Part shown: in pieces, positions 17,736 to 30,189 of the stretch | Numbering within the stretch: position 1 is the stretch's first letter | How the letters are laid out: each line of letters starts with the position of its first letter | Virus record (IMG/VR): IMGVR_UViG_3300007522_000039 | Location: 1 to 35,253 of that record | DNA length: 35,253 bases | Origin: a virus | Direction: 5' to 3' (one strand) | Notes under the pieces: model-generated | What the model was told of the DNA's origin: nothing | What the model saw: the letters and a program-made list of their open reading frames with translations, nothing else | Databases searched by the model: none | Position numbers and translations under genes: made by a program

Positions 17736-18057
17736 GGTGTTGCTCCTGCATCATCGAGTGGATTTCAAAACGGTTGACGTGCATCAGCGCCAGCAGCTCC
17801 AGCGCCAGGTCGCGGCGGCCCGCCTCATAGGCCAATTCCTCGACCGTGGCGGACAGGATGTCGTCGCTGGTGCGCGGGGCCATGGCCAGCACGCGGCCCA
17901 TGGCCAGCAGATCGGCGCCCAGATCAGGCGACGCGGCGAACGCAGCGCGCCAGCGACGCGCGCGGCGCGACACGGTGCGCCGGATCGCCTCGCGGATCGA
18001 TCCATCGCGCTCCGTGATCAGCGCCCGAAACAGGATCGACAGTCGATCGAAGATCAT
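17692..18057 (-). CDS. Small head protein, possibly Bbp19-like
   Basis: The 121-residue helical protein is encoded between portal and scaffold. It begins with the basic stretch MIFDRLSILFRALITERDG, has SATVEELAYEAGRRDLALELLALMHVN near residues 70-95, and ends in an acidic tail (ETDDDDDG). The central EGRR-like motif resembles the small Bbp19 family found beside the portal in Bordetella phage BPP-1-like viruses; this match is by memory and tentative. The ATG overlaps the portal stop by 4 nt. The 3' end overlaps the scaffold gene by 44 nt, an unusually long overlap that gives the poly-aspartate and poly-methionine codons in the two frames. Confidence 0.72.
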   Translation of the reverse strand: MIFDRLSILFRALITERDGSIREAIRRTVSRRARRWRAAFAASPDLGADLLAMGRVLAMAPRTSDDILSATVEELAYEAGRRDLALELLALMHVNRFEIHSMMQEQHHETDDDDDGRGPVA

Positions 18058-19685
18058 TGGCCGCCGCCCATGCCTGCCGCTGACAGGTCGCGCGCAATGC
18101 CGCCGCCTGCCTTGGCGGCCTCCATCATCTGCGCCTGTTGGGCCTGCTCCGCGCGCGCCTTGGCGATCTGGTCGGCTTCCTCGCGCGATGCCAGCAGGCG
18201 GGCGGGCACGCCGCGCGCTTCGGCCAGGACTTCGACCATATCGTCGGCGCTGATCCGGTCCATCACGCGCGGCTTGATCGCCGCCATCGGCGCCAGATCC
18301 GCGATCAGGCGCATGGTCGCCGCGCCCTCGGCAGACTTCGCCGCCATCGCCGCGGCGCTGGTGTATTCGATCACCAGATCCGCGCCGGCCGCCTCGGGCG
18401 GGGGCGGCGGGATCTGGCCCGCCTTCCACAGCATGGCGAACCGCTGCGCGATCTTCGGTCCTAGAAATTCCTCTTGCACGCGGCCAAGGTGCGGCGCCAT
18501 CAGCCGCAGCTTTTCCTCCTGCCGCTCGACCACCTCGGTCGCGGTCATCCCGGTGCGGCCCGCCAGGTTCATCAGCGACCAGTGGAACGCATCGCGGATC
18601 TGATCGAGCGCCTGCGCCTGCATTTCCAGCGTCAAGCCGGTGCCGGTGAAGGTGTCGAGCGTGCCCAGCATCTTGCGCCCGCTTATGTCCATGCCGCCAT
18701 AAACGACATCGCCGGGGCGGATGCGGCCCTTCAGGGGCATGACATCGCGATCCGGGGCCAGCAGCGTCGGATCGGCCGCACGCTGGCCGGCGCGCAGGTT
18801 GGCCCGCTCCATCAGATCCATTTTGCGCGCGCTCGCCAAAGCGATCCAACCGGGCCCGACGCCATAGCTCTCGCCCGTCTCGACTTCCCAGCGCGGCGCC
18901 GTCATCGGCATGTCGTCATAACCGCCGTGGCGCAGCACGGCGCTTTCGTCCTGGCTGGTGTGGATCGAATGCCAGCGCTTGCCCTTCGGCCCGAGCTGGC
19001 CCTTCACCCAATCGCGGTTTCTGTAGATATGATGAAAGATCACCTGCTTGTCGCGTGATCCGTCCAGCGCGCGCATCTTCATTTTCTCAGGCAGCACGTC
19101 GATGCCGAAGGAATGCGCCGCCTGCACCGGCGACAGCTTGAACCGGCGGATCACCTCGATCACCTGACCGTCCGCGTCGATGTCGTAGCAGACTTCTGCC
19201 ATGCTGATCGTCTGGTCCACGATCCGCCGATCGGCCACGCGCATCTCGGCGATCTGCGCCCCATTGCCCAGGGCGGACAGGTCGCCATAAAGCTGCGTCG
19301 TGGCGGAGTAGAACGGCGAGACGCTGGGCGAGAAGCTCGCGCGAATGATCGACGCCACCAGATCAAGCCATTCCTTCATCGGCTGGAACGCCGACAGCGC
19401 CGGGTCTGAACTGCTGACGCCGAACCAGCGGTTTGCCGGATTGTTGAGCGTGCCATACAGCCCCGAGCTGAAATGCTGGTTCGCGATGACCGCGCCGCTG
19501 TTCAACGGTTTTTCAGCCCGATAGTCCGATGCGTCGGCGGTCATGAACCCGCGGCGCTGCGGGCGGATCAGCCGCCCGATTTCTTCCCAGTCGCGCTCAT
19601 GGTCGGATCTGGCCGCCTTCAGATCCGACCAGGCGCGCTCGGCCGTGATGGCCCGCGGGTCTTTCTCCATGACCATCGCCATCAT
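18054..19685 (-). CDS. Portal (head-tail connector) protein
   Basis: The 543-residue protein has the pattern of the T7 gp8-type head-tail connector family (Pfam Head-tail_con). It starts with ITAERAWSDLKAARSDHERDW, then IRPQRRGF, NSGAVIANQHFSSGLYGTLNNPANRWFG, and later GRTGMTATEVVERQEEKLRLMAPHLGRVQEEFLGP. It should form the dodecameric ring through which DNA is packaged and ejected. The ATG at 19685 makes a 4-nt overlap with the stop of the small gene before it, so I preferred it to a much longer frame starting near 20018, which would run through two other genes. The C-terminal ~60 residues are alanine/glutamine-rich. Confidence 0.92.
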   Translation of the reverse strand: MMAMVMEKDPRAITAERAWSDLKAARSDHERDWEEIGRLIRPQRRGFMTADASDYRAEKPLNSGAVIANQHFSSGLYGTLNNPANRWFGVSSSDPALSAFQPMKEWLDLVASIIRASFSPSVSPFYSATTQLYGDLSALGNGAQIAEMRVADRRIVDQTISMAEVCYDIDADGQVIEVIRRFKLSPVQAAHSFGIDVLPEKMKMRALDGSRDKQVIFHHIYRNRDWVKGQLGPKGKRWHSIHTSQDESAVLRHGGYDDMPMTAPRWEVETGESYGVGPGWIALASARKMDLMERANLRAGQRAADPTLLAPDRDVMPLKGRIRPGDVVYGGMDISGRKMLGTLDTFTGTGLTLEMQAQALDQIRDAFHWSLMNLAGRTGMTATEVVERQEEKLRLMAPHLGRVQEEFLGPKIAQRFAMLWKAGQIPPPPPEAAGADLVIEYTSAAAMAAKSAEGAATMRLIADLAPMAAIKPRVMDRISADDMVEVLAEARGVPARLLASREEADQIAKARAEQAQQAQMMEAAKAGGGIARDLSAAGMGGGQ

Positions 19686-19873
19686 GCAGCGCCCAGCTGG
19701 CGGTTGCTTGGCCGCTCGGCGCGGATGCCGCTGGGCGACGTGAGGATATTGGCCGCCGCGCCGGCGCGCATCCGTTGCATGGCACGCTGCAGGCTCCCTT
19801 GGCGGTTCGCCTCGGTGTTGTCCGGGGCGGCGATGATGGGGGCGGTCATCTTGGGGGCGCTTCCAAAGCACAT
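19682..19873 (-). CDS. Small protein upstream of the portal gene
   Basis: The 63-residue product starts MCFGSAPK and contains a helical basic part (NRQGSLQRAMQRMRAG) followed by ANILTSPSGI. Short proteins with an MCFG-type start and a later LTSP-like motif recur beside podoviral head genes, but their role is not known to me. It has a clear ribosome-binding site (GAAAGGAAG) before the ATG at 19873. It lies 3 nt after the preceding gene and overlaps the portal start by 4 nt, so I regard it as genuine and co-translated with the portal. The MCF start is shared with the small internal virion protein at 11522-12181. Confidence 0.75.
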   Translation of the reverse strand: MCFGSAPKMTAPIIAAPDNTEANRQGSLQRAMQRMRAGAAANILTSPSGIRAERPSNRQLGAA

Positions 19874-19876
19874 GGG

Positions 19877-20449
19877 TCAGCTTCCTTTCTCGGGGACAAG
19901 CGCGAATTGCAGCCACGGCGTCTGTGACAAGCCGAAGCCGTGCAGCTCCGTCTCGAACGCAAATCCGATCGCGGTCAGCAGGCCGGGGGCGGTGGGATGC
20001 TCGGCCCAGCAACGGCACTCCAGACGGCGCAGCCCGGACTGCGCCATCGCACCGGGCAGATCGGCACGCAGGCCAGCCACCAGACGGCGCAGCGGGGCCG
20101 CGAACCTGACGTGATCGCGAGCGATCAGCGCGGCCGATGCGGTGCCACGCGCCAGCAGCTCGTCGATCATCACGATCGCGAACGGCTCGGCGCCGCCCTC
20201 GGGTCGGTGACGCCAGACGATTTGAAGGTGCGAGCCCGTCGCATCCTGCAGCACGAACTGGCGCAGGATCGCGTCGGGCGTCGGGTCAACGCCGCCCAGC
20301 TGGATCTCCAGCCGATCCATCCGGTCAAGATCCTCGATCACGCGCAGCGCCGACAGCAGCTCGAACGGCGCCAGGCTCAGATCGCGCCAGGCGCGGGCCC
20401 GCGTCAGCAGCTGCGGCAGGATCGGCGCGAAGCGCGCGGCGGCGGTCAT
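19877..20449 (-). CDS. GNAT-like protein (T7 gp13/DUF2833-like)
   Basis: The 190-residue protein lies between terminase and portal. Its C-terminal half contains RRLECRCWAEHPTAPGLLTAIGFAFETELHGFG. This is the acetyltransferase-fold pattern of a strand, an adjacent-position helix and LGF.xE, found in T7 gp13-type proteins of podoviruses. No clear acetyl-CoA loop is visible, so it may be a non-enzymatic relative with a role in virion assembly. The start overlaps the terminase stop by 4 nt (ATGA). Confidence 0.65.
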   Translation of the reverse strand: MTAAARFAPILPQLLTRARAWRDLSLAPFELLSALRVIEDLDRMDRLEIQLGGVDPTPDAILRQFVLQDATGSHLQIVWRHRPEGGAEPFAIVMIDELLARGTASAALIARDHVRFAAPLRRLVAGLRADLPGAMAQSGLRRLECRCWAEHPTAPGLLTAIGFAFETELHGFGLSQTPWLQFALVPEKGS

Positions 20450-22152: not shown

Positions 22153-22433
22153 CCCCTGCCCATCGCCTGCTCGGCATCGCCCAAAAAGCCGTATGGGGTC
22201 GGACGCAGGGGCATGTGATCAGGCCGCGGGCCGGCCCCCCCGGGTGCGCGGCGCGAGCGCGGGCGCGAGGCGCGCGAGCCCGCGCGAAAATCGCGCGCAT
22301 GGGCAGGCGGGCAGGCGCGAGGCGCGATGCGCGCCAGGTGCGGGCAGGCGAGCTGCGCGCGAGGCGCGTCGAACTGATTTACGATCAGTTGCGCCGATGC
22401 GATTTTTCCCTTGTTCGTCAGTGACTTAATCAT
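22149..22433 (-). CDS. Possible small protein between terminase subunits
   Basis: A 94-residue frame exactly fills the gap between the two terminase genes. Its ATG overlaps the TerS stop (ATGA) and its stop overlaps the TerL start. The first ~22 residues (MIKSLTNKGKIASAQLIVN) look like real protein. The middle is arginine/alanine/proline-rich and mirrors a stretch of GCGC repeats in the DNA, which reduces confidence. No family is recognised. It may be a genuine small protein, or the coupled ends may be chance over a DNA region that mainly serves packaging. Confidence 0.42.
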   Translation of the reverse strand: MIKSLTNKGKIASAQLIVNQFDAPRAQLACPHLARIAPRACPPAHARDFRAGSRASRPRSRRAPGGAGPRPDHMPLRPTPYGFLGDAEQAMGRG

Positions 22434-23122
22434 TCTGTCCGACTTTCTGCGTCCGGGTCATCCAGATCACCGGATGCAACGTGTTGATATTGCTGGATTT
22501 CGCCGGGCATCGGCGGCGGTGCGAAGGCGGACGCCGCGTGGCCGTCGATCACCCGCGCGCCATCGCCAGGCGCGGCGCTGCCGGGCATCAGGATCTGCGC
22601 CGCGGCGATGTTCACCGTCGTGTCGGGCGTCATCTTCGCCAGGCCGTAGGGCAGCAGCGCGTCGGCGGCCTGCCGCTGCTCGCGCATCACCGCAAGCAGC
22701 AGCGACCGACGCTCGCCCGGCGCGGCACGGCCGCCGCTCCATTCCTCGATCTGCTCGACGCGCGCCATCGCCAGCTCGATGCCGGTGCGGCCCGATCGAT
22801 CCGACAGGCCGGCCAGCTCCGCCAGCGCGTCCTCGGGCATGCGGAACCCACGGGCCGCCAGCATCCGCCGCAGGTGGCTGGCGCGCTTGTTGGCGGACCC
22901 GACAGGCCGACCGCGACCCGCGGCCCCGGCGGGCCCGGCGGCAGCGGCCACGGCGCGCTCCAGCGTCGCCGGATGGGCGGGCGAGGCGGGCGCGGCCAGC
23001 AGGTCGAGCTGGCGGCCCGTCGCCGCGGCATCGGCCAGGCGCGCGGCGACCTCCGCCGCGGCGGCGGCAGCGGCGGCGTCCCCCGCCGCGGCGCTGTCAG
23101 CGGCGACCTTGGCCCGGCTCAT
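22430..23122 (-). CDS. Putative terminase small subunit
   Basis: The 230-residue protein lies one small frame upstream of TerL. The N-terminal ~70 residues are alanine-rich. A DNA-binding-like segment follows (GRGRPVGSANKRASHLRRMLAARGF, ~68-93; this GRPxGSxNK motif is common in small terminase subunits). After it come helical parts suited to oligomerisation and a proline-rich acidic tail. It should recognise the packaging site and load TerL. The ATG at 23122 overlaps the stop of the frame covering the candidate origin by 4 nt. The assignment comes from motif and position. Confidence 0.75.
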   Translation of the reverse strand: MSRAKVAADSAAAGDAAAAAAAAEVAARLADAAATGRQLDLLAAPASPAHPATLERAVAAAAGPAGAAGRGRPVGSANKRASHLRRMLAARGFRMPEDALAELAGLSDRSGRTGIELAMARVEQIEEWSGGRAAPGERRSLLLAVMREQRQAADALLPYGLAKMTPDTTVNIAAAQILMPGSAAPGDGARVIDGHAASAFAPPPMPGEIQQYQHVASGDLDDPDAESRTE

Positions 23123-23604
23123 GCCTGCAATCCCGAATTGTTTAGGCTTTTCAGCGCCTTGAGGAAGGCGAAGCCGAGGGAGAAGCCGAGGGAGAAGCCC
23201 CAGCCGCTACAGGCTTTGGGCGCTGTAGCGGGCTTGTAGCGGCTCTGTAGCGGCTCTTTATCTATATATAACAACTCTTTAACTACTAACGCTACTACTA
23301 CTACAGCGGACGCGCCTGCGCGCGTGCGTGCCCGCGTCACACGCACATGAGGTAAAATCGAAAAACACTGTAGCGGCTGTAGCGGCATGATGTAAGCCGA
23401 TGAAATTGATGAATAATATGCCGCTACAGTGCCTGCTACAGTGCCGCTACGCTGTAGCGGCTGAGCTGGCCCCCGAACCCGCGCCACGCGCACAACCACC
23501 GCGCGATCGGCGAACAGGCTGGCCTGCGTCTTTTGGCTCTCGACCTTGGGTCCGGGTGCGGACGTTGGATCGCGCCGGCGCTGCTGTGCGGGCTTCATCG
23601 TCAC
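23119..23604 (-). CDS. Uncertain protein spanning the repeat region
   Basis: A 161-residue frame opens with GTG at 23604, four bases after the helicase stop, and ends with a 4-nt overlap on the TerS start. Residues 1-50 (KPAQQRRRDPTSAPGPKVESQ, then LFADRAVVVRVARV) could be a real basic protein. From residue ~50 on the frame reads through the DNA repeats (PLQ.LQ motifs; FSLGFSLGF from a 12-bp tandem repeat), and its composition is unlike its neighbours. Either a short gene has been extended by an open frame, or the whole is coding with origin repeats embedded. No family is recognised. Confidence 0.35.
   Translation of the reverse strand: MTMKPAQQRRRDPTSAPGPKVESQKTQASLFADRAVVVRVARVRGPAQPLQRSGTVAGTVAAYYSSISSAYIMPLQPLQCFSILPHVRVTRARTRAGASAVVVVALVVKELLYIDKEPLQSRYKPATAPKACSGWGFSLGFSLGFAFLKALKSLNNSGLQA
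23203..23461. repeat. Iteron-like repeat cluster with AT-rich core; candidate replication origin
   Basis: About nine copies of CTGTAGCGGC or its complement occur here. Three are direct at exactly 11-bp spacing (23223, 23234, 23245); two abut (23368, 23377). Two are inverted (23203 and 23420), and there is one variant (23432). An inverted pair, GCCGCTAC and GTAGCGGC separated by 3 nt, lies at 23443-23461. Between the first and second groups lies an AT-rich stretch (23255-23290) in otherwise GC-rich DNA, containing a 7-of-9 match to a DnaA box at 23258. The cluster sits directly after the helicase gene. Direct repeats at one helical turn next to an AT-rich stretch are the layout of iteron origins. 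Confidence 0.6.
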
Positions 23605-23607
23605 GCC

Positions 23608-25413
23608 TCAGATCCCCGCGTTCGGGTCGAACGGATCGACGGGCTGATCGGGGCGCTGACGCGCATCATCATCTTTGCCCAAAAGGCCGGGGATCGCGCT
23701 GAGCGGTATCGCGTGCGCCCGGCTCTGCAACGTCTCGAAGCGCAGCGGGTTGGTCTTTTGGCTCCCTGGCACACGCTGGGCCGCCTGCGACCAGCCGCCG
23801 TCTGCCCAGTGGGTGTCGCGATGCAACAGACCCAGCGTGGGGTTGCGGTTCGCGACCATCAGCTGCGCGCCATCGCCTTTCCCTTCCACTTTCAGGCCGT
23901 AGGCGGGCAGCAGATCACGGGCCGTCGCTCGATCGGGCTCGATGTTGTCCGGCAATATCCCGGCCGCGGCCAGCACCCATCTGCCTACGGTGTAGCGCCT
24001 GCCGCCGCGGTGCGCGTCCAGCGGCTGGCCCAGCAGGTGATTGAGCCAGCGGGCCCAGTCGGGCGATCGGTCGAGCTGGTCGGACACGTCCGAGGCGGTC
24101 AGCTTGGCGGTCCACATCGTCAGGCGATCGGGTCCGGGCGCATCTTCATGCATCACCAGATCGGCCATCGCCAGCAGCGTGCCGAATTGGTCCGCGCCGC
24201 GCGCGTTGTGGCCGGCGAGCGTCAACGCCTGGCGATACAGCTCCAGCGTCTCGTGATAGCGCGACCAGCCCTGCACCACGCGCGTGCGCAGCGCACGGCC
24301 GACCTTGCGCATCCGCGTCGGGCTGACGTTGGGCGGCGATTGCGTGCGGGGCAACGGCAGCAGCTCCAGCAGTGCCAGGCGCGACAGATCCTGATCCAGC
24401 ATGGGCGGCCGCAGAATGGAGCTGAACCCGAACACGTTGCGCACGGTGAAGCTGTGCGATTGGTGGTCTGTCGATCCTCGCAACACACGGCCGCCACTGG
24501 CGGCGACGCGCGCCAGACGGATGATGTCGCCCAGCCGCTTGCTGCCCGGCTCTGGCTCGGCCTCATCGATCAGCACCGGAATCGTCGACTGCCTGACCGT
24601 CGCGCGGATGCTCGGCTCGGTTAAATTCGGGGAATGGATCAGCGCGCCATGGCCGCCGATCACCTGTTCCATGATTTCCTGCAGCGTCGACTTGCCGGTC
24701 GCCGCGTCGCCGGTGATCCAGACCATCGGGCGCCACTTCAGCGCACCGCCGAAGATCGCCGCGACGATCCAGCCAAGCATCAGCCAGGCGTCGGTGTCGC
24801 CGCGCTCCCAGTTCCATGATCGCAGGATCTCCGACAGCTCGGCGCCCGGCTCGAAGTCCAGTTCGGATGATGGCAGCGGGCGCGGGATTGGCTCGAACGC
24901 CGGATAGACGAAGCCGTCATGCTCGCCCGGCATCAGCCACTTGCCGCCGATCAGCACGCGCCCGCCGCAATGCAGAATGAGCCCGCCGTCGTCATCGCGC
25001 CAGGCCCCGACGCCGCGCACACGTTCCTCGGCGTTCCACACACCTTTCTGCGAACAGGCGCGGGTCATCGCGCTGGCCAGCTTCTCCTGGTTCCAGCCGC
25101 TGATGTTCCCCTCTTTGTTGTGGGTGGGGAATTGGTATTCCAACAGCGCGCTGTTGCCGCCGTAGATCTTGCGCATCGTATCTTTGTCGTGCCGCGCCAC
25201 GGTGATCAGCTGGCCCAGCGTGTCCAGGTAAAAGCATTTCACGCCCAGCGTGCCCAGTGCGAGCGCAGGCGATCCGGCGAAAATCTCGCCCGGTTTGGTC
25301 GCGGTGTCAGCCTCGCCGCGCGGCTGCTCAGGCAGCGGCGGCGGGGCGGCGTTCATCTCGGCGCCCAGCAGGCGCAGCGTGGGGCGTTGCACCCCGTCTG
25401 CGTTCTCAGTCAT
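23608..25413 (-). CDS. AAA+ replicative helicase (phage D5/P4-like)
   Basis: The 601-residue protein contains an AAA+ ATPase core at ~200-400. Walker A is GDAATGKS (residues 235-242) and Walker B is VLIDEAE (280-286), followed by an arginine-containing region (LRGSTDHQSHSF). The N-terminal ~200 residues include a WNxEERVRGVGAWRDD segment seen in phage primase-linked helicases. The C-terminus ends in a disordered proline/aspartate-rich tail. It follows the Toprim primase gene with a 4-nt overlap, so the pair probably forms the phage primosome. It presumably loads host polymerase at the candidate origin just downstream. No polymerase gene is present. Confidence 0.85.
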   Translation of the reverse strand: MTENADGVQRPTLRLLGAEMNAAPPPLPEQPRGEADTATKPGEIFAGSPALALGTLGVKCFYLDTLGQLITVARHDKDTMRKIYGGNSALLEYQFPTHNKEGNISGWNQEKLASAMTRACSQKGVWNAEERVRGVGAWRDDDGGLILHCGGRVLIGGKWLMPGEHDGFVYPAFEPIPRPLPSSELDFEPGAELSEILRSWNWERGDTDAWLMLGWIVAAIFGGALKWRPMVWITGDAATGKSTLQEIMEQVIGGHGALIHSPNLTEPSIRATVRQSTIPVLIDEAEPEPGSKRLGDIIRLARVAASGGRVLRGSTDHQSHSFTVRNVFGFSSILRPPMLDQDLSRLALLELLPLPRTQSPPNVSPTRMRKVGRALRTRVVQGWSRYHETLELYRQALTLAGHNARGADQFGTLLAMADLVMHEDAPGPDRLTMWTAKLTASDVSDQLDRSPDWARWLNHLLGQPLDAHRGGRRYTVGRWVLAAAGILPDNIEPDRATARDLLPAYGLKVEGKGDGAQLMVANRNPTLGLLHRDTHWADGGWSQAAQRVPGSQKTNPLRFETLQSRAHAIPLSAIPGLLGKDDDARQRPDQPVDPFDPNAGI

Positions 25414-26615
25414 GCGTCGGCTCCCTCGCGCTCAGCATCCAGCGCCGCGCGCAGTGCGTCGTTTGCATCCTTGCCGCCGAACCGATTGCGCCAGACGCTG
25501 ACGGTCCGGCCCTCGCGGGCGAACCGATCGACGGCGCGATCGATGGCGGCCCGCTCCGGCTTGCCGGCGTCGTTGTCGGCGATGATCACCACCGATGTGA
25601 ATTGCGGGGGCAGCCGGATCTCGCGGATGTTGCCCAGATCCACAGCGGCGAACGCATACCAGGGCGTTCCGTCCCGCGGCTCGCCGGTCATGCGGTTGAT
25701 CACGCCGATCGACAGCGCGTCCTCGATCCCCTCGGCGATGTAGGCACGCGATCCTTGCGGCGCGCGCGACATCGGCACGGCGCCGCCGCGCGGGCCCAGG
25801 CCGCGGATCAGGCGGATGAACCCGCCTTTCTTGGTTCCGTAAACTTTTTTCGGGACAGGCACGGGGGCCTTGCCCCAGCTGCCATCGGGGCGCTGCGCCA
25901 GCCAAGTGCGATGCACGCCCCAGAACGGCACGCCGTCCTTGCCTGCCGGCCCGCCGATGGCCGTGACCATGCAGGGCCAGTCGCCTTCGATCACTTGGGC
26001 GTCGCGGATCACCTCGCCGGTGGCGCGGTCGATCTCGGCGCCCAGCTCGTGGCGATAGTGGAGCGATGGCGCGTATCGGATCGCGCGTGGTGCGCGGCCC
26101 AGACGGTCCAGCCCGACGCCGCGCCCGGCCAGATAGGCAGCGACAGGGGTGTCCTCGATCCGCTCGGCGCAGCGCATGAACAGCGCTTGAGCCTCGCCGC
26201 GCTTCTTGGCGGCCAGCGCTTCATGGTCGCGCGCATCGCGCTCGGCTTGCGCCTTGGCCTTGGCGACCTGACGCTGGCGCAGCTCGGCCTGCGCCGGCGT
26301 CTCGGCGTCCATGCCGAGGAAGGCGCGCGCCTCGATCAGCGCGCCCTTGCGGTCGCAGCCCAGCGCCAGCTGGATCAGGTCGAGCATGTCGCCGCCCGCT
26401 CCGCCCGCCTCATCGCGCCAGCGCCCCGCATAAGCGCCGTGCAGCGAGACGTGGAACGATCCGATCCGCTTGTCGTCGCGGCCCGGGTTGCAGCTCCACC
26501 AGCGCCCGCCGTTCAGGTGACCGTTCGGCGCATAGCGCTGCGCCACGTCCAGCGGGCGGGCCTGCAGCGCGTCCACGATCTCCTGAAAAGAAGGGAAGCG
26601 GGCCCGCGCGGTCAT
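25410..26615 (-). CDS. Toprim DNA primase
   Basis: The 401-residue protein carries a Toprim domain near its C-terminus. The conserved glutamate is in AYIAEGIEDALS (E295) and the acidic pair in VVIIADNDAGK (D347, D349), followed by GGKDANDAL. Residues ~35-100 (WWSCNPGRDDKRIGSFHV, then GGDMLDLIQLALGC) have the layout of a primase zinc-finger region, but the four zinc-binding cysteines/histidines are not there. A charged coiled-coil-like linker covers 105-150. The ATG at 26615 overlaps the preceding stop by 4 nt; a longer frame from 26696 would run into that gene. It should make primers for phage replication. Confidence 0.86.
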   Translation of the reverse strand: MTARARFPSFQEIVDALQARPLDVAQRYAPNGHLNGGRWWSCNPGRDDKRIGSFHVSLHGAYAGRWRDEAGGAGGDMLDLIQLALGCDRKGALIEARAFLGMDAETPAQAELRQRQVAKAKAQAERDARDHEALAAKKRGEAQALFMRCAERIEDTPVAAYLAGRGVGLDRLGRAPRAIRYAPSLHYRHELGAEIDRATGEVIRDAQVIEGDWPCMVTAIGGPAGKDGVPFWGVHRTWLAQRPDGSWGKAPVPVPKKVYGTKKGGFIRLIRGLGPRGGAVPMSRAPQGSRAYIAEGIEDALSIGVINRMTGEPRDGTPWYAFAAVDLGNIREIRLPPQFTSVVIIADNDAGKPERAAIDRAVDRFAREGRTVSVWRNRFGGKDANDALRAALDAEREGADA

Positions 26616-26962
26616 GGAAACAGCCACCGGCCAAGCTGTGACCAGCCCGACATCGGCACCGCTATCAGCATGAACAGGCAGGCGGTCCGCATCCATGCCT
26701 GATCGGTCGCGACGACGCGGGTCTTGGCGTAGCGCGCCGCGACAGCTGCCGTGTCGCGCTTGGCCCGTGCCAATTGCAGCTCGTCCGTCCAGAATTCCAG
26801 CTCATCGGCCAGCTCCAGCACGAACGGCACGGGAAGGATGACCATGCCGCTAGGGCCAAAGCCTTGCTGTGCGCAGGTGGCGCTGTCGCGCAGAAGCTGC
26901 ACGAACTCCGGCTCGGTCGCGCGCTCACGCCCGCGCTTGAGATATTCCAGCGATTGCGTCAT
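26612..26962 (-). CDS. Small protein with C-terminal membrane segment
   Basis: The 116-residue product begins with a charged helical part (MTQSLEYLKRGRERATEPEF). It contains PSGMVILPVPFVLELADELEFWTDELQLARAKRD and ends in one hydrophobic segment (ACLFMLIAVPMSGW, then LGRWLF). This suggests a tail-anchored inner-membrane protein. No family is recognised. Both ends overlap neighbours by ATGA, so it is co-translated with the primase. A host-interaction role for an early tail-anchored protein is possible but not shown. Confidence 0.7.
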   Translation of the reverse strand: MTQSLEYLKRGRERATEPEFVQLLRDSATCAQQGFGPSGMVILPVPFVLELADELEFWTDELQLARAKRDTAAVAARYAKTRVVATDQAWMRTACLFMLIAVPMSGWSQLGRWLFP

Positions 26963-27309
26963 GCCGCGTTGCTCCGCGCCATGTCTTCACGCCAGCGCTC
27001 AAGCGCCAGACCCGCGCGCACGCGCTGGATCTGCACCACTTGGCCGCCGATCTTCCAACGCGCGCGCGACCAGTCCGCAGATCGCGGCGACGCCAGCTCG
27101 GCCGTCGGCATCATCGCCAGCAGATCGCAAGCGGCGGCCAGATCGCGGATCACCGGGTGCGCGCGGGTGACATACGGCAGCAGATCCTGCAGATCCAGCT
27201 GATGCATGCGCACCAGCTGGACCTCGGGCGCATGCTCGGCCGCGATGGCGGACGCGATCGCGATCAACGCATGATCGGCAGGGCTCAGCGGCGGGGGCGT
27301 GGCGGTCAT
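26959..27309 (-). CDS. Early protein of unknown function
   Basis: The 116-residue soluble protein is helical and alanine-rich at the start (LSPADHALIAIASAIAAEH). Its middle reads MHQLDLQDLLPYVTRAHPVIRDLAAACDLLAMMPT and its end is basic (WREDMARSNAA). No motif of a known enzyme is visible. It lies between the Tad2-like gene and the membrane protein, with ATGA overlaps at both ends. Being in the immediate-early cluster, it may act on the host or regulate early genes, but nothing in the sequence shows which. Confidence 0.7.
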   Translation of the reverse strand: MTATPPPLSPADHALIAIASAIAAEHAPEVQLVRMHQLDLQDLLPYVTRAHPVIRDLAAACDLLAMMPTAELASPRSADWSRARWKIGGQVVQIQRVRAGLALERWREDMARSNAA

Positions 27310-27683
27310 CGGTTCGTCGCTTCGATGACGCGCCAGTCATCCGCCAGCATATCGGTTTGCGATGCCAGCCATGGGACCAGATCGCCGGTGACGGTCTGCA
27401 TGTAGATATAAGGCAGTGACATTTTCGAATGCCGGTCGGGACGCTGCAAATGCAGCCACATATCTTTGTCGTTCCATCCGGCGCGCGCCACGCTCTCGCC
27501 TGCCTTGAGCGCGTCGAGCGCATGGCCGAAGCTCAAGGCGTCGATCGGCTGATAGGCCGCTTCGAACACATCGCGAGGCGACCAAGATTCATATCCGTCC
27601 TCGTAGGTGCTAAAGCCGGGCTGCCCATCCCTTTCGAGTGGATAGGCGGTGATCCGTTTGGCGCCGTAATAGGTCCGTGTCAT
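27306..27683 (-). CDS. Tad2-like anti-Thoeris protein (DUF2829)
   Basis: The C-terminal 75 of 125 residues match the DUF2829/Tad2 pattern well: ALSFGHALDALKAGESVARAGW, then MWLHLQ, then LPYIYMQTVTGDLVPWLASQTDMLADDW. In known phages, Tad2 proteins form cages that bind and remove the cyclic ADP-ribose-type signal of Thoeris; some members also bind cyclic dinucleotides of CBASS. The first ~48 residues (YYGAKRITAYPLERDG, then YESWSPRDVFEAAYQP) form an added module often seen fused to this family in phages. The ATG at 27683 is supported by AAAGGAGCG upstream, and the start overlaps the previous stop by 4 nt. Activity is inferred from family only. Confidence 0.85.
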   Translation of the reverse strand: MTRTYYGAKRITAYPLERDGQPGFSTYEDGYESWSPRDVFEAAYQPIDALSFGHALDALKAGESVARAGWNDKDMWLHLQRPDRHSKMSLPYIYMQTVTGDLVPWLASQTDMLADDWRVIEATNR

Positions 27684-28009
27684 TTGCAGTCGCTCCTTTG
27701 CTGCCAGTCTGCGTAGCCTGCAGCCGCAAGCGCCGCTTGCGTCCGCGCGGCATGATCCGCGGCGTCTTCCTGCGCGGCTTCCGCGATCACCTGCAGATCT
27801 TCCAGCAGCGCATCGGCCGCGTTCTGCAGGTTGCCGGCCTCGACCAGCTCGCGGAACCGCCCGACCACGCCGGCGATGTCCTCGCGATCGGGGACCACGG
27901 CAAGACGCAGCTCGTCCAGGTCCTTCACATCGCGCCGCGTGATCGACCTGGCGCGGGCTTTCAACGCGCACGACATCGCGCGCAGACCGAACCCGACAGC
28001 CGCGATCAT
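27680..28009 (-). CDS. Early acidic helical protein of unknown function
   Basis: The 109-residue product has a hydrophobic start (MIAAVGFGLRAM), a basic patch (CALKARARSITRR) and a strongly helical acidic remainder (ELVEAGNLQNAADALLEDLQVIAEAAQEDAADHAARTQ). No family is recognised. I chose the ATG at 28009 because it forms a 4-nt overlap with the preceding gene; a TTG at 28066 is possible but weaker. The start lies just downstream of a terminator-like hairpin, so expression may need transcription to pass it. Confidence 0.62.
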   Translation of the reverse strand: MIAAVGFGLRAMSCALKARARSITRRDVKDLDELRLAVVPDREDIAGVVGRFRELVEAGNLQNAADALLEDLQVIAEAAQEDAADHAARTQAALAAAGYADWQQRSDCK

Positions 28010-28290
28010 GCGGGCGCCAAAAAGAAAAGACCCCGACGCGAGGTGAAGGCGCCGGGGCAAGTGCAATCGATCCGCAGCGCTTCACGGACCGAATGCAGGC
28101 GGCGCGCCAGGGCGCGCGCGGCCATCTCGGAAAAGGATCGCGGCGAGACGATGTTGACCCAGCGTCTCGCCGCTGCCGTGCCGACCGGGGAGGATACGGG
28201 CACGGACGCGGCCGGTCCGGCGTCTGCAACGCCAGGGAGGAACGCGCGACATGCGAACCGGCCGTGTTGGATGGGGCGGGCGGCGGTCAT
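28006..28290 (-). CDS. Small protein following the Cro-like gene
   Basis: The 94-residue frame starts by ATGA overlap with the Cro-like stop and ends by ATGA overlap with the next start. It contains GRFACRAFLPGVADAG, then SFSEMAARALARRLHSVREALRIDCTCPGAF, and ends in LFFLAPA. The helical stretch and a CTC pair look protein-like, but no family is recognised. Its last codons overlie the hairpin and T run of the terminator-like element, an arrangement that would let ribosomes disturb termination. Confidence 0.55.
   Translation of the reverse strand: MTAARPIQHGRFACRAFLPGVADAGPAASVPVSSPVGTAAARRWVNIVSPRSFSEMAARALARRLHSVREALRIDCTCPGAFTSRRGLFFLAPA
28019..28057 (-). terminator. Rho-independent-like terminator after the Cro-like region
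   Basis: On the minus strand CCCCGGCG pairs with CGTCGGGG (8 bp, one G-U) around an 11-nt loop, and TCTTTTCTTTTT follows at once. This is the best intrinsic terminator signature in the window. It lies early in the long leftward unit, in the same relative place as lambda tR1 after cro. Confidence 0.6.
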
Positions 28291-28592
28291 GCCGCCACCT
28301 GCTCGGGAGATTGCGCGTCGCGGCGGGCGGCGAACGCGACCAGCAGCGCCAGCTCCTTCTCGCTGGCGCCGAAGATCAGATGCTCGGGCGTCAGCGGGAT
28401 GCCATGCGCTCGCGCATGGGCCAGCAGCTTGCGCATGATGTTGGCGCTGGGAAGGTCGCCCGCCGCGCGGCCCTTGACAGCGCGACGCCAGACATAGGGC
28501 GACTTCGGCTTCATCCCGCAGGCTGCAGCGGTCGCCTCGATGCCGCCGAACAGGCGCAGCACAACGTCAGTTGGTGATTGGTGATCGGTCAT
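28287..28592 (-). CDS. Cro/YdaS-like DNA-binding regulator
   Basis: The 101-residue protein is transcribed divergently from the repressor gene. Residues ~5-60 (VVLRLFGGIEATAAACGMK, then VWRRAVKG, then LPSANIMRKLLAHARAHG) form a helix-turn-helix of the YdaS/Cro type. The second half (LTPEHLIFGASEKELALLVAFAARR) is a helical extension. It probably binds the intergenic operators and shuts off the repressor to commit to lytic growth. The ATG at 28592 has no clear ribosome-binding site, so a very short or leaderless transcript is possible. A -35/-10-like pair (TTGACG, 17 nt, CAATAT) ends close to the start. Confidence 0.75.
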   Translation of the reverse strand: MTDHQSPTDVVLRLFGGIEATAAACGMKPKSPYVWRRAVKGRAAGDLPSANIMRKLLAHARAHGIPLTPEHLIFGASEKELALLVAFAARRDAQSPEQVAA

Positions 28593-28685: not shown

Positions 28686-29300
28686 ATGGATGCACACTGG
28701 TTTAAAGCGCGCTCACGCGCGAAGGGTTTGACGATCATCGACCTCGGCGATGTGATCGGTCGCGATCGGTCTGCCGTGTCTCGGTTCTACACGGGCCGAC
28801 AGGTCATGACGTTCGACCAGGCGCGTAAGATTGCCGATGCGCTGGAAGAACCGTTGCCGGAGGTGCTGGCGAGGGCCGGCATCGCCAACGCACGCGAGGC
28901 GCAGCAGCTCACGCCCGGGTTTTCGGACAGCGACGCCGCCCTCTGGGTGCCAGCGGTGGGGGTGGATCGATCCTGCGATGATCAGATCGCCGACGCGCTT
29001 GGGCGCAAGCCGGGCGTTGATGTTTGGGAGGTTCGTGGCAGGTCCCTGTCGCTGATCGGTTATCTTCCCGGCGACCGCATTTTGGTCGACACCGGCGCCG
29101 CAGATCGTGCGCTGTCAGGCGATGCGGTGATCGCACAGGTCTATGATTGGGCGCAGGGATCAGCCAAGACACTGCTGCGCCAGCTCCAAACGCCGGTGCT
29201 TGTGTCACATTCCCCAGATGCCGGGGATTGGAAGGCGCATGTGGTCGATCAAGATAGGGTCATCATCAAGGGCGTGGTGCGCGCGTCTTGGCGGCGATGA
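28686..29300 (+). CDS. CI/LexA-type phage repressor with S24 peptidase domain
   Basis: The 204-residue protein keeps the prophage silent. Residues ~12-60 form a helix-turn-helix (GLTIIDLGDVIGRDRSAVSRFYTG, then FDQARKIADALE). A likely Ala-Gly cleavage site follows at 64-65 (RAGIA). Residues 88-204 form an S24-type domain with the catalytic serine in VRGRSLSLIGYLPGDRILVD (S120) and the lysine at K161 (SAKTLLRQL), a spacing of 41 that fits LexA-like proteins. SOS-triggered self-cleavage is therefore likely. I chose the ATG at 28686; GTG at 28662 would add eight residues but lies inside the operator. The 3' end overlaps an opposite-strand gene by 35 nt. Confidence 0.85.
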   Translation: MDAHWFKARSRAKGLTIIDLGDVIGRDRSAVSRFYTGRQVMTFDQARKIADALEEPLPEVLARAGIANAREAQQLTPGFSDSDAALWVPAVGVDRSCDDQIADALGRKPGVDVWEVRGRSLSLIGYLPGDRILVDTGAADRALSGDAVIAQVYDWAQGSAKTLLRQLQTPVLVSHSPDAGDWKAHVVDQDRVIIKGVVRASWRR

Positions 29301-29769
29301 TTTTTGCGTAGATTGGTGGATGCAGAAGCTTCTCCAGTCCCCAGACTACGAATAGCGCCCACCCAAAATTGAATAACAATAGCGCGATGTTTGCAAATTC
29401 ATTGTTGAGAGCAAAGCTTGATAACGCACGGAAATCTTTTGACCACAGTAATGAAAAAAATGGCCCCAAGCCGCCTGAAATAAAAAATGTAGGCACTAAA
29501 ATATATGTAAGTATTTTATTTGTTAGCTGTTTTGCGCTGTAATCTAAATATTTCTTGTATCTTTGATTGTCTTGGTATCTCCTTTCACCGAACTCTGACA
29601 ACTTTCTTTGCGCAGCATCAGCAGCCCATTGGGCATGGCGGGCGTCAGTGATCGCCTCCAAGTTTTTCGGCTCGCGCGCACGCACGATCCATGCCTGGGC
29701 CAGGCGCGCTTCTGCGGCGCTCTTCTCGGCCATCAATATCGTGAAAATGTCGTGCTGATTTTCCTGCAT
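29266..29769 (-). CDS. Two-span membrane protein, candidate lysogenic-conversion gene
   Basis: The 167-residue product has a soluble helical N-terminus (AEKSAAEARLAQAWIV, then ARHAQWAADAAQRKLSEFGERRYQDNQRYKKYL). Two membrane segments follow (LTYILVPTFFISGGLGPFFSLLW and FANIALLLFNFGWALFVVWGL), and the tail is basic. It is encoded against the lysogeny genes, and the DNA at 29300-29630 is clearly more AT-rich than elsewhere, a sign of recent acquisition. Place and strand suggest expression from the prophage. Superinfection exclusion or defence is a reasonable guess, and its architecture is like small two-span effectors, but I recognise no family. The start is uncertain: ATG at 29769 or 29733, or GTG further upstream. 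A much longer frame to 30558 is a shadow. Confidence 0.65.
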   Translation of the reverse strand: MQENQHDIFTILMAEKSAAEARLAQAWIVRAREPKNLEAITDARHAQWAADAAQRKLSEFGERRYQDNQRYKKYLDYSAKQLTNKILTYILVPTFFISGGLGPFFSLLWSKDFRALSSFALNNEFANIALLLFNFGWALFVVWGLEKLLHPPIYAKIIAAKTRAPRP

Positions 29770-29826
29770 GGCGAATGTTACGACGCACGTCTCGATCACG
29801 AAAGATCGAAATTTGATACTCACCTC

Positions 29827-29856
29827 TTGACATGTATCAGTAATCACCACTAACTT
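29827..29856 (+). promoter_or_regulatory. Probable promoter of the rightward integration operon
   Basis: A consensus -35 (TTGACA, 29827-29832) is followed after 17-18 nt by CTAACT/TAACTT at about 29850-29856. It is correctly placed for the gene at 29917 and the chain of overlapping genes ending with the integrase. It lies in the AT-rich gap 29770-29916, which holds no other gene on either strand that I can support. Confidence 0.55.
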
Positions 29857-29916
29857 AAACCCATCGGCGCACATCGCACCCTGCGGTGGCGCACATCCAG
29901 ATGGAGCTTGCACGCC

Positions 29917-30189
29917 ATGCCCTTCCCCCGTCCGATCCAGCTTCCCCCCGTCTCCGATCGCCAGCTGTCCCGCTACATCGCCGTCGCCCATGACCTGCGC
30001 GATGAATGCGCCGATCCCGTCGCGGCGGAGCATATGGCGCATGCGCTGCCCGAGCTGCTTGAGGAATTGAACGGCTACCGCCGCGCCGTCGCCTCGATCC
30101 GCGCTCGCGCCGGGACCATCCATGCCGCAGGTCCGAACGTGGTGTCGCTGCCCGCGCCGCGCCAGTCGCCGGCGCCGATCTGTGCCTGA
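29917..30189 (+). CDS. Small protein, first gene of the integration operon
   Basis: The 90-residue product starts PFPRPIQLPPVSDRQLSRYIAVAHDLRDE and continues with a helical HMAHALPELLEELNGYRRAVASIRARA, ending in a proline-rich tail. No family is recognised; it is soluble and helical. A GGAG motif lies about 10 nt before the ATG at 29917. A TTG at 29908 is too close to that motif. The 3' end overlaps the tiny membrane gene that follows by 8 nt. Confidence 0.65.
   Translation: MPFPRPIQLPPVSDRQLSRYIAVAHDLRDECADPVAAEHMAHALPELLEELNGYRRAVASIRARAGTIHAAGPNVVSLPAPRQSPAPICA

Follow-up and report, generated by a model that had tools for sequence, protein, structure and literature searches.

We propose that the 485-bp interval at 23123..23607 (- strand) of a 35,253-bp IMG/VR phage contig, hereafter the window, is a phage replication origin, and that the adjoining helicase is its initiator, acting through its C-terminal domain on 8-bp iterons. 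We give this reading, for which all the evidence is comparative, a probability of roughly 85%. Computation revealed the repeat array, its conserved geometry, AT-rich and alternating purine-pyrimidine elements, and coupling of the motif to the helicase C-terminus, strongest between residue 558 and motif position 3. Binding, melting, self-loading and bidirectionality are expected by analogy with the SaPI Rep and Cch relatives of the helicase. A winged-helix-like C-terminal domain would bind the iterons, CCGCTACA on the gene strand of the window phage, and helicase oligomers would assemble on iterons on both sides of the AT-rich stretch. The oligomers would then open this stretch, load and unwind, and the adjoining TOPRIM primase would supply primers.

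A repeat array between helicase and terminase genes

Within 15-28 kb of the window, the - strand genes run in the order primase, helicase, 485-bp gap, TerS-like gene and TerL. The TOPRIM primase (25410..26696, -) was identified by profile matches to DUF7146 and Toprim_3, and the AAA+ helicase (23608..25413, -) is the proposed self-loading initiator. The TerS-like gene (22430..23122, -) has no family match and was assigned from position and conservation. TerL shows a weak Terminase_3 match and a tblastn match to annotated terminases, and relatives also keep, next to TerL, the protein encoded at 18054-20018, which we take for the portal. A Pfam scan of 10 neighbouring proteins found no classical iteron-plasmid Rep (RepA/TrfA/Pi, WH1-WH2). 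Elsewhere in the window, the C-terminal third of the protein at 27306-28229 is a Tad2-like domain (Thoeris anti-defence 2; PF11195, 2.9e-24), and tblastn places similar proteins near TerL in several relatives. A sub-threshold carph-isopro domain at 28287-28592 (NF046037, 26.5 bits against a cut-off of 38) marks a possible phage regulator, and the lower GC of 29001-30000 (0.53 against a background of 0.65-0.70) may reflect a recent insertion.

An earlier note, made from the sequence alone, described about nine repeats at 23203-23461. The array is real and lies downstream of the helicase gene, with 6 exact, 2 one-mismatch and 2 weaker copies that occur in both orientations and flank an AT-rich stretch. 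Exact copies of the 10-mer CTGTAGCGGC are found at 23452..23461 (+; slot -75 from the central pair), 23420..23429 (-), 23245..23254 (+) and 23203..23212 (-), and in the central pair itself, formed by the anchor copy at 23377..23386 (+) and a second at 23368..23377 (+). Copies with one mismatch lie at 23234..23243 and 23223..23232 (both +). Together with degenerate CCGCTACG (23444..23451, -) and CTGCTACA (23433..23440, -; exact CCGCTACA in the near-identical strain L023), the array totals 10 sites with at most one mismatch over 8 bp. A very weak iteron-like site, ACGCTACT (23289..23296, -), sits in a conserved << slot. The noted 11-bp period is exact for the copies at 23223, 23234 and 23245, but the copies at 23368 and 23377 overlap by one base rather than abut. 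The AT-rich stretch is located within the array as claimed (23255..23300) and is a candidate DNA unwinding element; an alternating purine-pyrimidine, Z-like tract (23307..23350) separates it from the central pair. Next to the array, 23176-23199 consists of a 12-bp tandem unit, GAGGGAGAAGCC, of which L023 has one fewer.

Counting CTGTAGCGGC against shuffled controls, a check the note had suggested, gave 11 matches with at most one mismatch in the window; shuffles gave a mean of 3.06 and a maximum of 8. All 6 exact matches fall within 23203-23461, and of the 5 one-mismatch matches 2 are inside the array and 3 outside. The 8-bp core TGTAGCGG has 8 copies inside the same interval and 2 across the remainder of the 35 kb. 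Likewise, the top 8-mer of the 485-bp gap occurs 8 times, and none of 100 dinucleotide shuffles had more than 3. The note had suggested looking for an inflection of GC skew at the array, but no clear switch is visible there, and Rfam returned no match.

Conserved layout and motif turnover in related phages

We retrieved 62 loci via TerL and a second, held-out set via the helicase. The order primase-helicase-gap-TerS-TerL is kept in most relatives reaching far enough, and among 38 TerL relatives the helicase-TerS gap mostly measures ~420-570 bp and holds an equivalent array of iterons. In 36 of 38 gaps the commonest 8-mer exceeded all 100 dinucleotide shuffles (exceptions, L032 and L048). Relatives thus keep the repeats in the same place, and the loss of repeats that the note had listed as evidence against an origin is not what we found. 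A related helicase in L008 has no array within the 8 kb covered, and the primase used as query against viral contigs gave no matches.

The geometry of the array is preserved in 61 loci as >> << >> [alternating purine-pyrimidine tract] << [AT-rich] >> <<. When these loci are aligned on the central pair, the slots fall at -88/-80 (>>), -56/-44 (<<) and 0/+8 (>>), followed by +72..+92 (<<(<)), +132..+156 (>>(>)) and +164..+188 (<(<)). Mean AT content in the 61 loci peaks at 0.62-0.68 between +100 and +140. Purine-pyrimidine alternation reaches 80-90% at +30..+60 over 62 loci; the longest alternating run has a median of 23 bp across loci against 6.3 in shuffles, and is shorter, 15 bp, in the window. 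From its composition, the tract may be a Z-prone or supercoil-sensitive element.

The 8-bp motif varies from phage to phage (CCACAACG, CTACAACG, CCACGACA, CAGCAACG, GTGCAACG, GCCATACC, CTGAAACC, GCGGTACA and others), but nearly every relative has AC at positions 6-7. Copies inside one phage agree at ~6-7 positions, and between phages the motif switches across all copies at once, a concerted turnover. L034 has the window's own motif although its helicase is only ~40% identical.

Most loci first scored as array-less do have clusters, located 0.5-3 kb further along and beyond inserted sequence. Ten loci (L105, L134, L142, L150, L156, L157, L162, L046, L048 and L059) carry 0.2-3 kb extra between helicase and array, and their array lies near TerS where TerS was found. 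The helicase-array junction, beside the proposed origin, is a hot spot of insertion.

An exact 19-mer scan of IMG/VR gave 13 loci, of which one was the near-identical strain and nearly all others were coding AAT/VAA repeats. The exceptions, L016:7998-8190 and L012:5588-6007, are mixed-orientation CTGTAGCGGC/CGCTACA arrays in GC-rich, apparently actinobacterial elements, each in the 3' part of one gene. We take this gene to encode a DUF3631-like ATPase, and these arrays are perhaps a convergent helicase-origin pairing. Circular phage-plasmids of Phaeobacter (pGal_G40) and Leisingera encode a 24-27% identical helicase, after which comes a gap of 327 bp that holds GTAAC-type repeats as well as an AT-rich stretch. 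Partition genes of the RepA/ParB type, present on both plasmids, suggest that maintenance depends on a separate replicon. On pGal_G40 (L168, NC_023143.1), positions 36575-37848 hold genes for an acyl-homoserine-lactone synthase and a LuxR regulator.

One gene-strand frame runs through the origin core without a stop in 31/33 training loci and in 24/29 held-out ones, where 5.4 and 4.3 are expected. This frame usually begins near the helicase stop and ends near the TerS start; in the window it comprises 161 codons (23119..23604, -) coupled to both, without sign of amino-acid selection. Its dN/dS is mostly 0.7-1.2 (range 0.3-3.3), whereas the helicase gives 0.02-0.45 when the same pairs are compared; the dS of the frame is below helicase dS in most pairs, and the 161-aa ORF belongs to no conserved protein family. 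Since dN/dS is ~1 and dS is low, constraint appears to act on DNA rather than protein, and we read the frame as combining DNA-level constraint with selection to stay open. Our guess is that an open frame serves to avoid premature transcription termination.

The helicase C-terminus and motif recognition

The AlphaFold2 model of the helicase (pLDDT 88) is closest to SCCmec Cch (5dgk, Z 17.0, 432 residues; residues 36-579). The next matches are MCMs and SaPI5 Rep (7om0, Z 14.8), and by structure the fold is of the AAA+ Cch/SaPI Rep/MCM-like type. This does not support the note's view that the repeats lack a neighbouring initiator from a known iteron family. The helicase scores 13.1 bits for Pfam DUF927, the family of Cch and SaPIbov1 Rep, below the gathering cut-off of 22.6; for this reason we say that it works like Cch/SaPI Rep and do not class it as a DUF927 member at the sequence level. 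The C-terminal domain modelled alone (pLDDT 91) weakly resembles winged-helix DNA-binding domains (Z ~3), including the C-terminal region of SaPIbov1 Rep (8tch, Z 2.5). A Foldseek search with this domain gave no significant match; we do not take this as a sign of a new fold.

We examined which protein follows the motif by sliding-window partial correlation of protein distance with motif distance, with TerL distance partialled out. The best segment was helicase residues 555-578 (partial correlation 0.595), and motif divergence follows the helicase C-terminal domain (residues ~550-578 in the window). Median partial correlations were 0.27 for the helicase, 0.11 for the primase, 0.02 for TerL and -0.08 for TerS, disfavouring the last three as readers. 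The note had named the helicase, the primase and the small protein at 23119-23604 as candidates. Only the helicase keeps its place, the primase being weakly coupled and the 161-aa ORF drifting neutrally in sequence, which makes it an unlikely reader. The helicase C-terminal domain is most likely the reader of the repeats. The proposed reader domain spans residues 466-583 (23665..24018, -), and its key residues, R558 and Q563, are located on the terminal beta strands of its model.

Residue 558 is R, K or H in 22 of 24 G3 loci and in 0 of 38 others (Fisher 8e-15), and T558 goes with A at motif position 3 in 27/27. The association recurs in the held-out set (14/15 vs 0/15, p 2e-7). The loci share ancestry, so that these raw p-values overstate independence; the conservative figure comes from phylogenetically independent pairs, for which the tree left out the helicase C-terminus: 8-9 of 10 change in the same direction and 0 in the opposite one (p ~0.004). 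Among 587 helicase columns, residue 558 was the best predictor of position 3 in held-out loci (0.69 against a baseline of 0.28; training accuracy 0.94). Held-out motifs had been put in register by hand via the AC rule, and we therefore ran a register-free permutation test, which gave 55/60 hits; the 5000 permutations averaged 28.7 and never exceeded 42. L105 (R558, S563; array CCGCGACA) and L142 (R558, Q563; array TGCTACG) are consistent with the rule.

R563 accompanies A at motif position 5 in 17/17, Q563 mostly T and S563 mostly G. This rule runs one way, from R to A; the reverse prediction is incomplete, and 563 is not the best held-out column. An association of residue 561 with position 2 (training p 8e-5) failed in the held-out set (p 0.56). 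On held-out loci, the codes for positions 2 and 5 hold only in part or fail. Since the layout is fixed and the 8-letter motif changes with one helicase residue, the recognition rule is partly readable from sequences.

Alternative readings and known systems

The array, its conserved geometry and the relatives support the iteron-type origin beside primase-helicase genes that the note had put forward. Could the array instead be a packaging site (pac/cos) bound by the neighbouring small terminase subunit? It sits immediately upstream of the TerS-like gene, and where genes are inserted they fall between helicase and array, so that the array moves off from the helicase and stays ~300-350 bp upstream of TerS, a finding that counts against our main reading. 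The motif, however, does not track TerS (whole-protein rho 0.12, besides the negative median partial correlation) but the helicase C-terminus, and we judge a packaging site very unlikely. A location at the boundary of replication and packaging genes would also suit an early/late transcription operator, regulated by the helicase or another protein, with replication beginning elsewhere. Yet a search at the array found no promoter- or terminator-like site, and the anatomy, ~11 sites within 270 bp together with a Z-like tract and an AT-rich element, is origin-like; an operator in place of an origin is unlikelier still, and the array may have a secondary regulatory role. We give least credence to the repeats encoding a repetitive protein (the 161-aa ORF) rather than a DNA signal: the open frame does span the interval in nearly all relatives, but the repeats occur in both orientations, and the frame evolves at near-neutral dN/dS, far above the helicase, with lower dS in most pairs.

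Beyond the helicase-read origin itself, a more far-reaching picture is tentative and, in our estimate, slightly less probable than an even bet. Here, in a widespread phage family, the terminal beta strands of the helicase would read the 8-bp iteron by a partly one-residue-to-one-base code; 10-13 sites and their reader would switch together repeatedly; and the origin would form a stop-free, protein-neutral frame in which ribosomes follow transcription from helicase to terminase. Under such a code, R558T and Q563R would be predicted to move preference from CCGCTACA toward CCACTACA and CCGCAACA sites. Our main reading already gives a large phage family, with Roseobacteraceae phage-plasmids among its distant relatives, a helicase-read origin whose initiator specificity is predictable from sequence at one motif position and partly at a second. 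The loci offer a natural dataset of an initiator and ~11 binding sites changing together many times, which is relevant to heteroimmunity, to replicon incompatibility and to counter-defences that target origins, such as Odn (PMC8263062). Furthermore, the open but neutral frame leads to a testable idea of how an operon can contain an origin and still be transcribed and translated.

SaPI Reps recognise iterons just downstream of their own gene through the C-terminal domain, as stated in a passage of PMC7581432 that cites Ubeda et al. 2007, and the isolated C-terminal domain of Cch2 binds its putative origin, direct repeats downstream of its gene (PMC7581432). The proposed mechanism therefore has precedent, and the window shows the corresponding arrangement, in which iterons flank an AT-rich region just after the helicase gene. 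Because the helicase resembles these known readers of downstream iterons, the pairing that the note had thought undescribed is rather a phage version of a known one. The array is most probably an iteron origin of SaPI-Rep type that a large family of phages uses, and we see no new class of initiator in it.

With the SaPI replicon (SaPIbov1/SaPI5 Rep) the system shares downstream iterons and, as proposed here, a self-loading helicase initiator and C-terminal reading. Unlike the satellite SaPIs, it belongs to phages that have terminase and structural genes of their own, is too distant in sequence for Pfam/NCBIfam cut-offs, and has an 8-bp motif family with a partly decipherable code, a Z-like tract and a separate TOPRIM primase. 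A phage-inducible chromosomal island (PICI) was rejected as identity of the window, which encodes a large-terminase relative and the portal-like protein conserved beside TerL. SCCmec Cch is the best structural match, and Cch2 too has repeats downstream of its own gene; its origin holds three 5-nt iterons, whereas here 10-13 sites follow a fixed multi-block geometry. As in the lambdoid O protein/ori system, a phage origin has iterons and an AT-rich region inside an open frame. Lambda O, whose own gene contains the lambda iterons, is not a helicase; the frame in the present system is separate from the initiator gene and free of amino-acid selection. In the V. cholerae PLE, the RepA DNA-binding domain and ori covary between element variants, plausibly under interference (PMC8263062). 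Initiator and origin covary here as well, but the PLE initiator is of the RepA_N family, with ~30-bp iterons and few variants. We found no description of the present origin family in the open-access literature. New here are the phage family and its origin architecture, a reader code that can be deciphered in part, the concerted turnover of the motif, the conservation of a Z-like tract, and a frame that stays free of stops through the origin while its protein sequence drifts.
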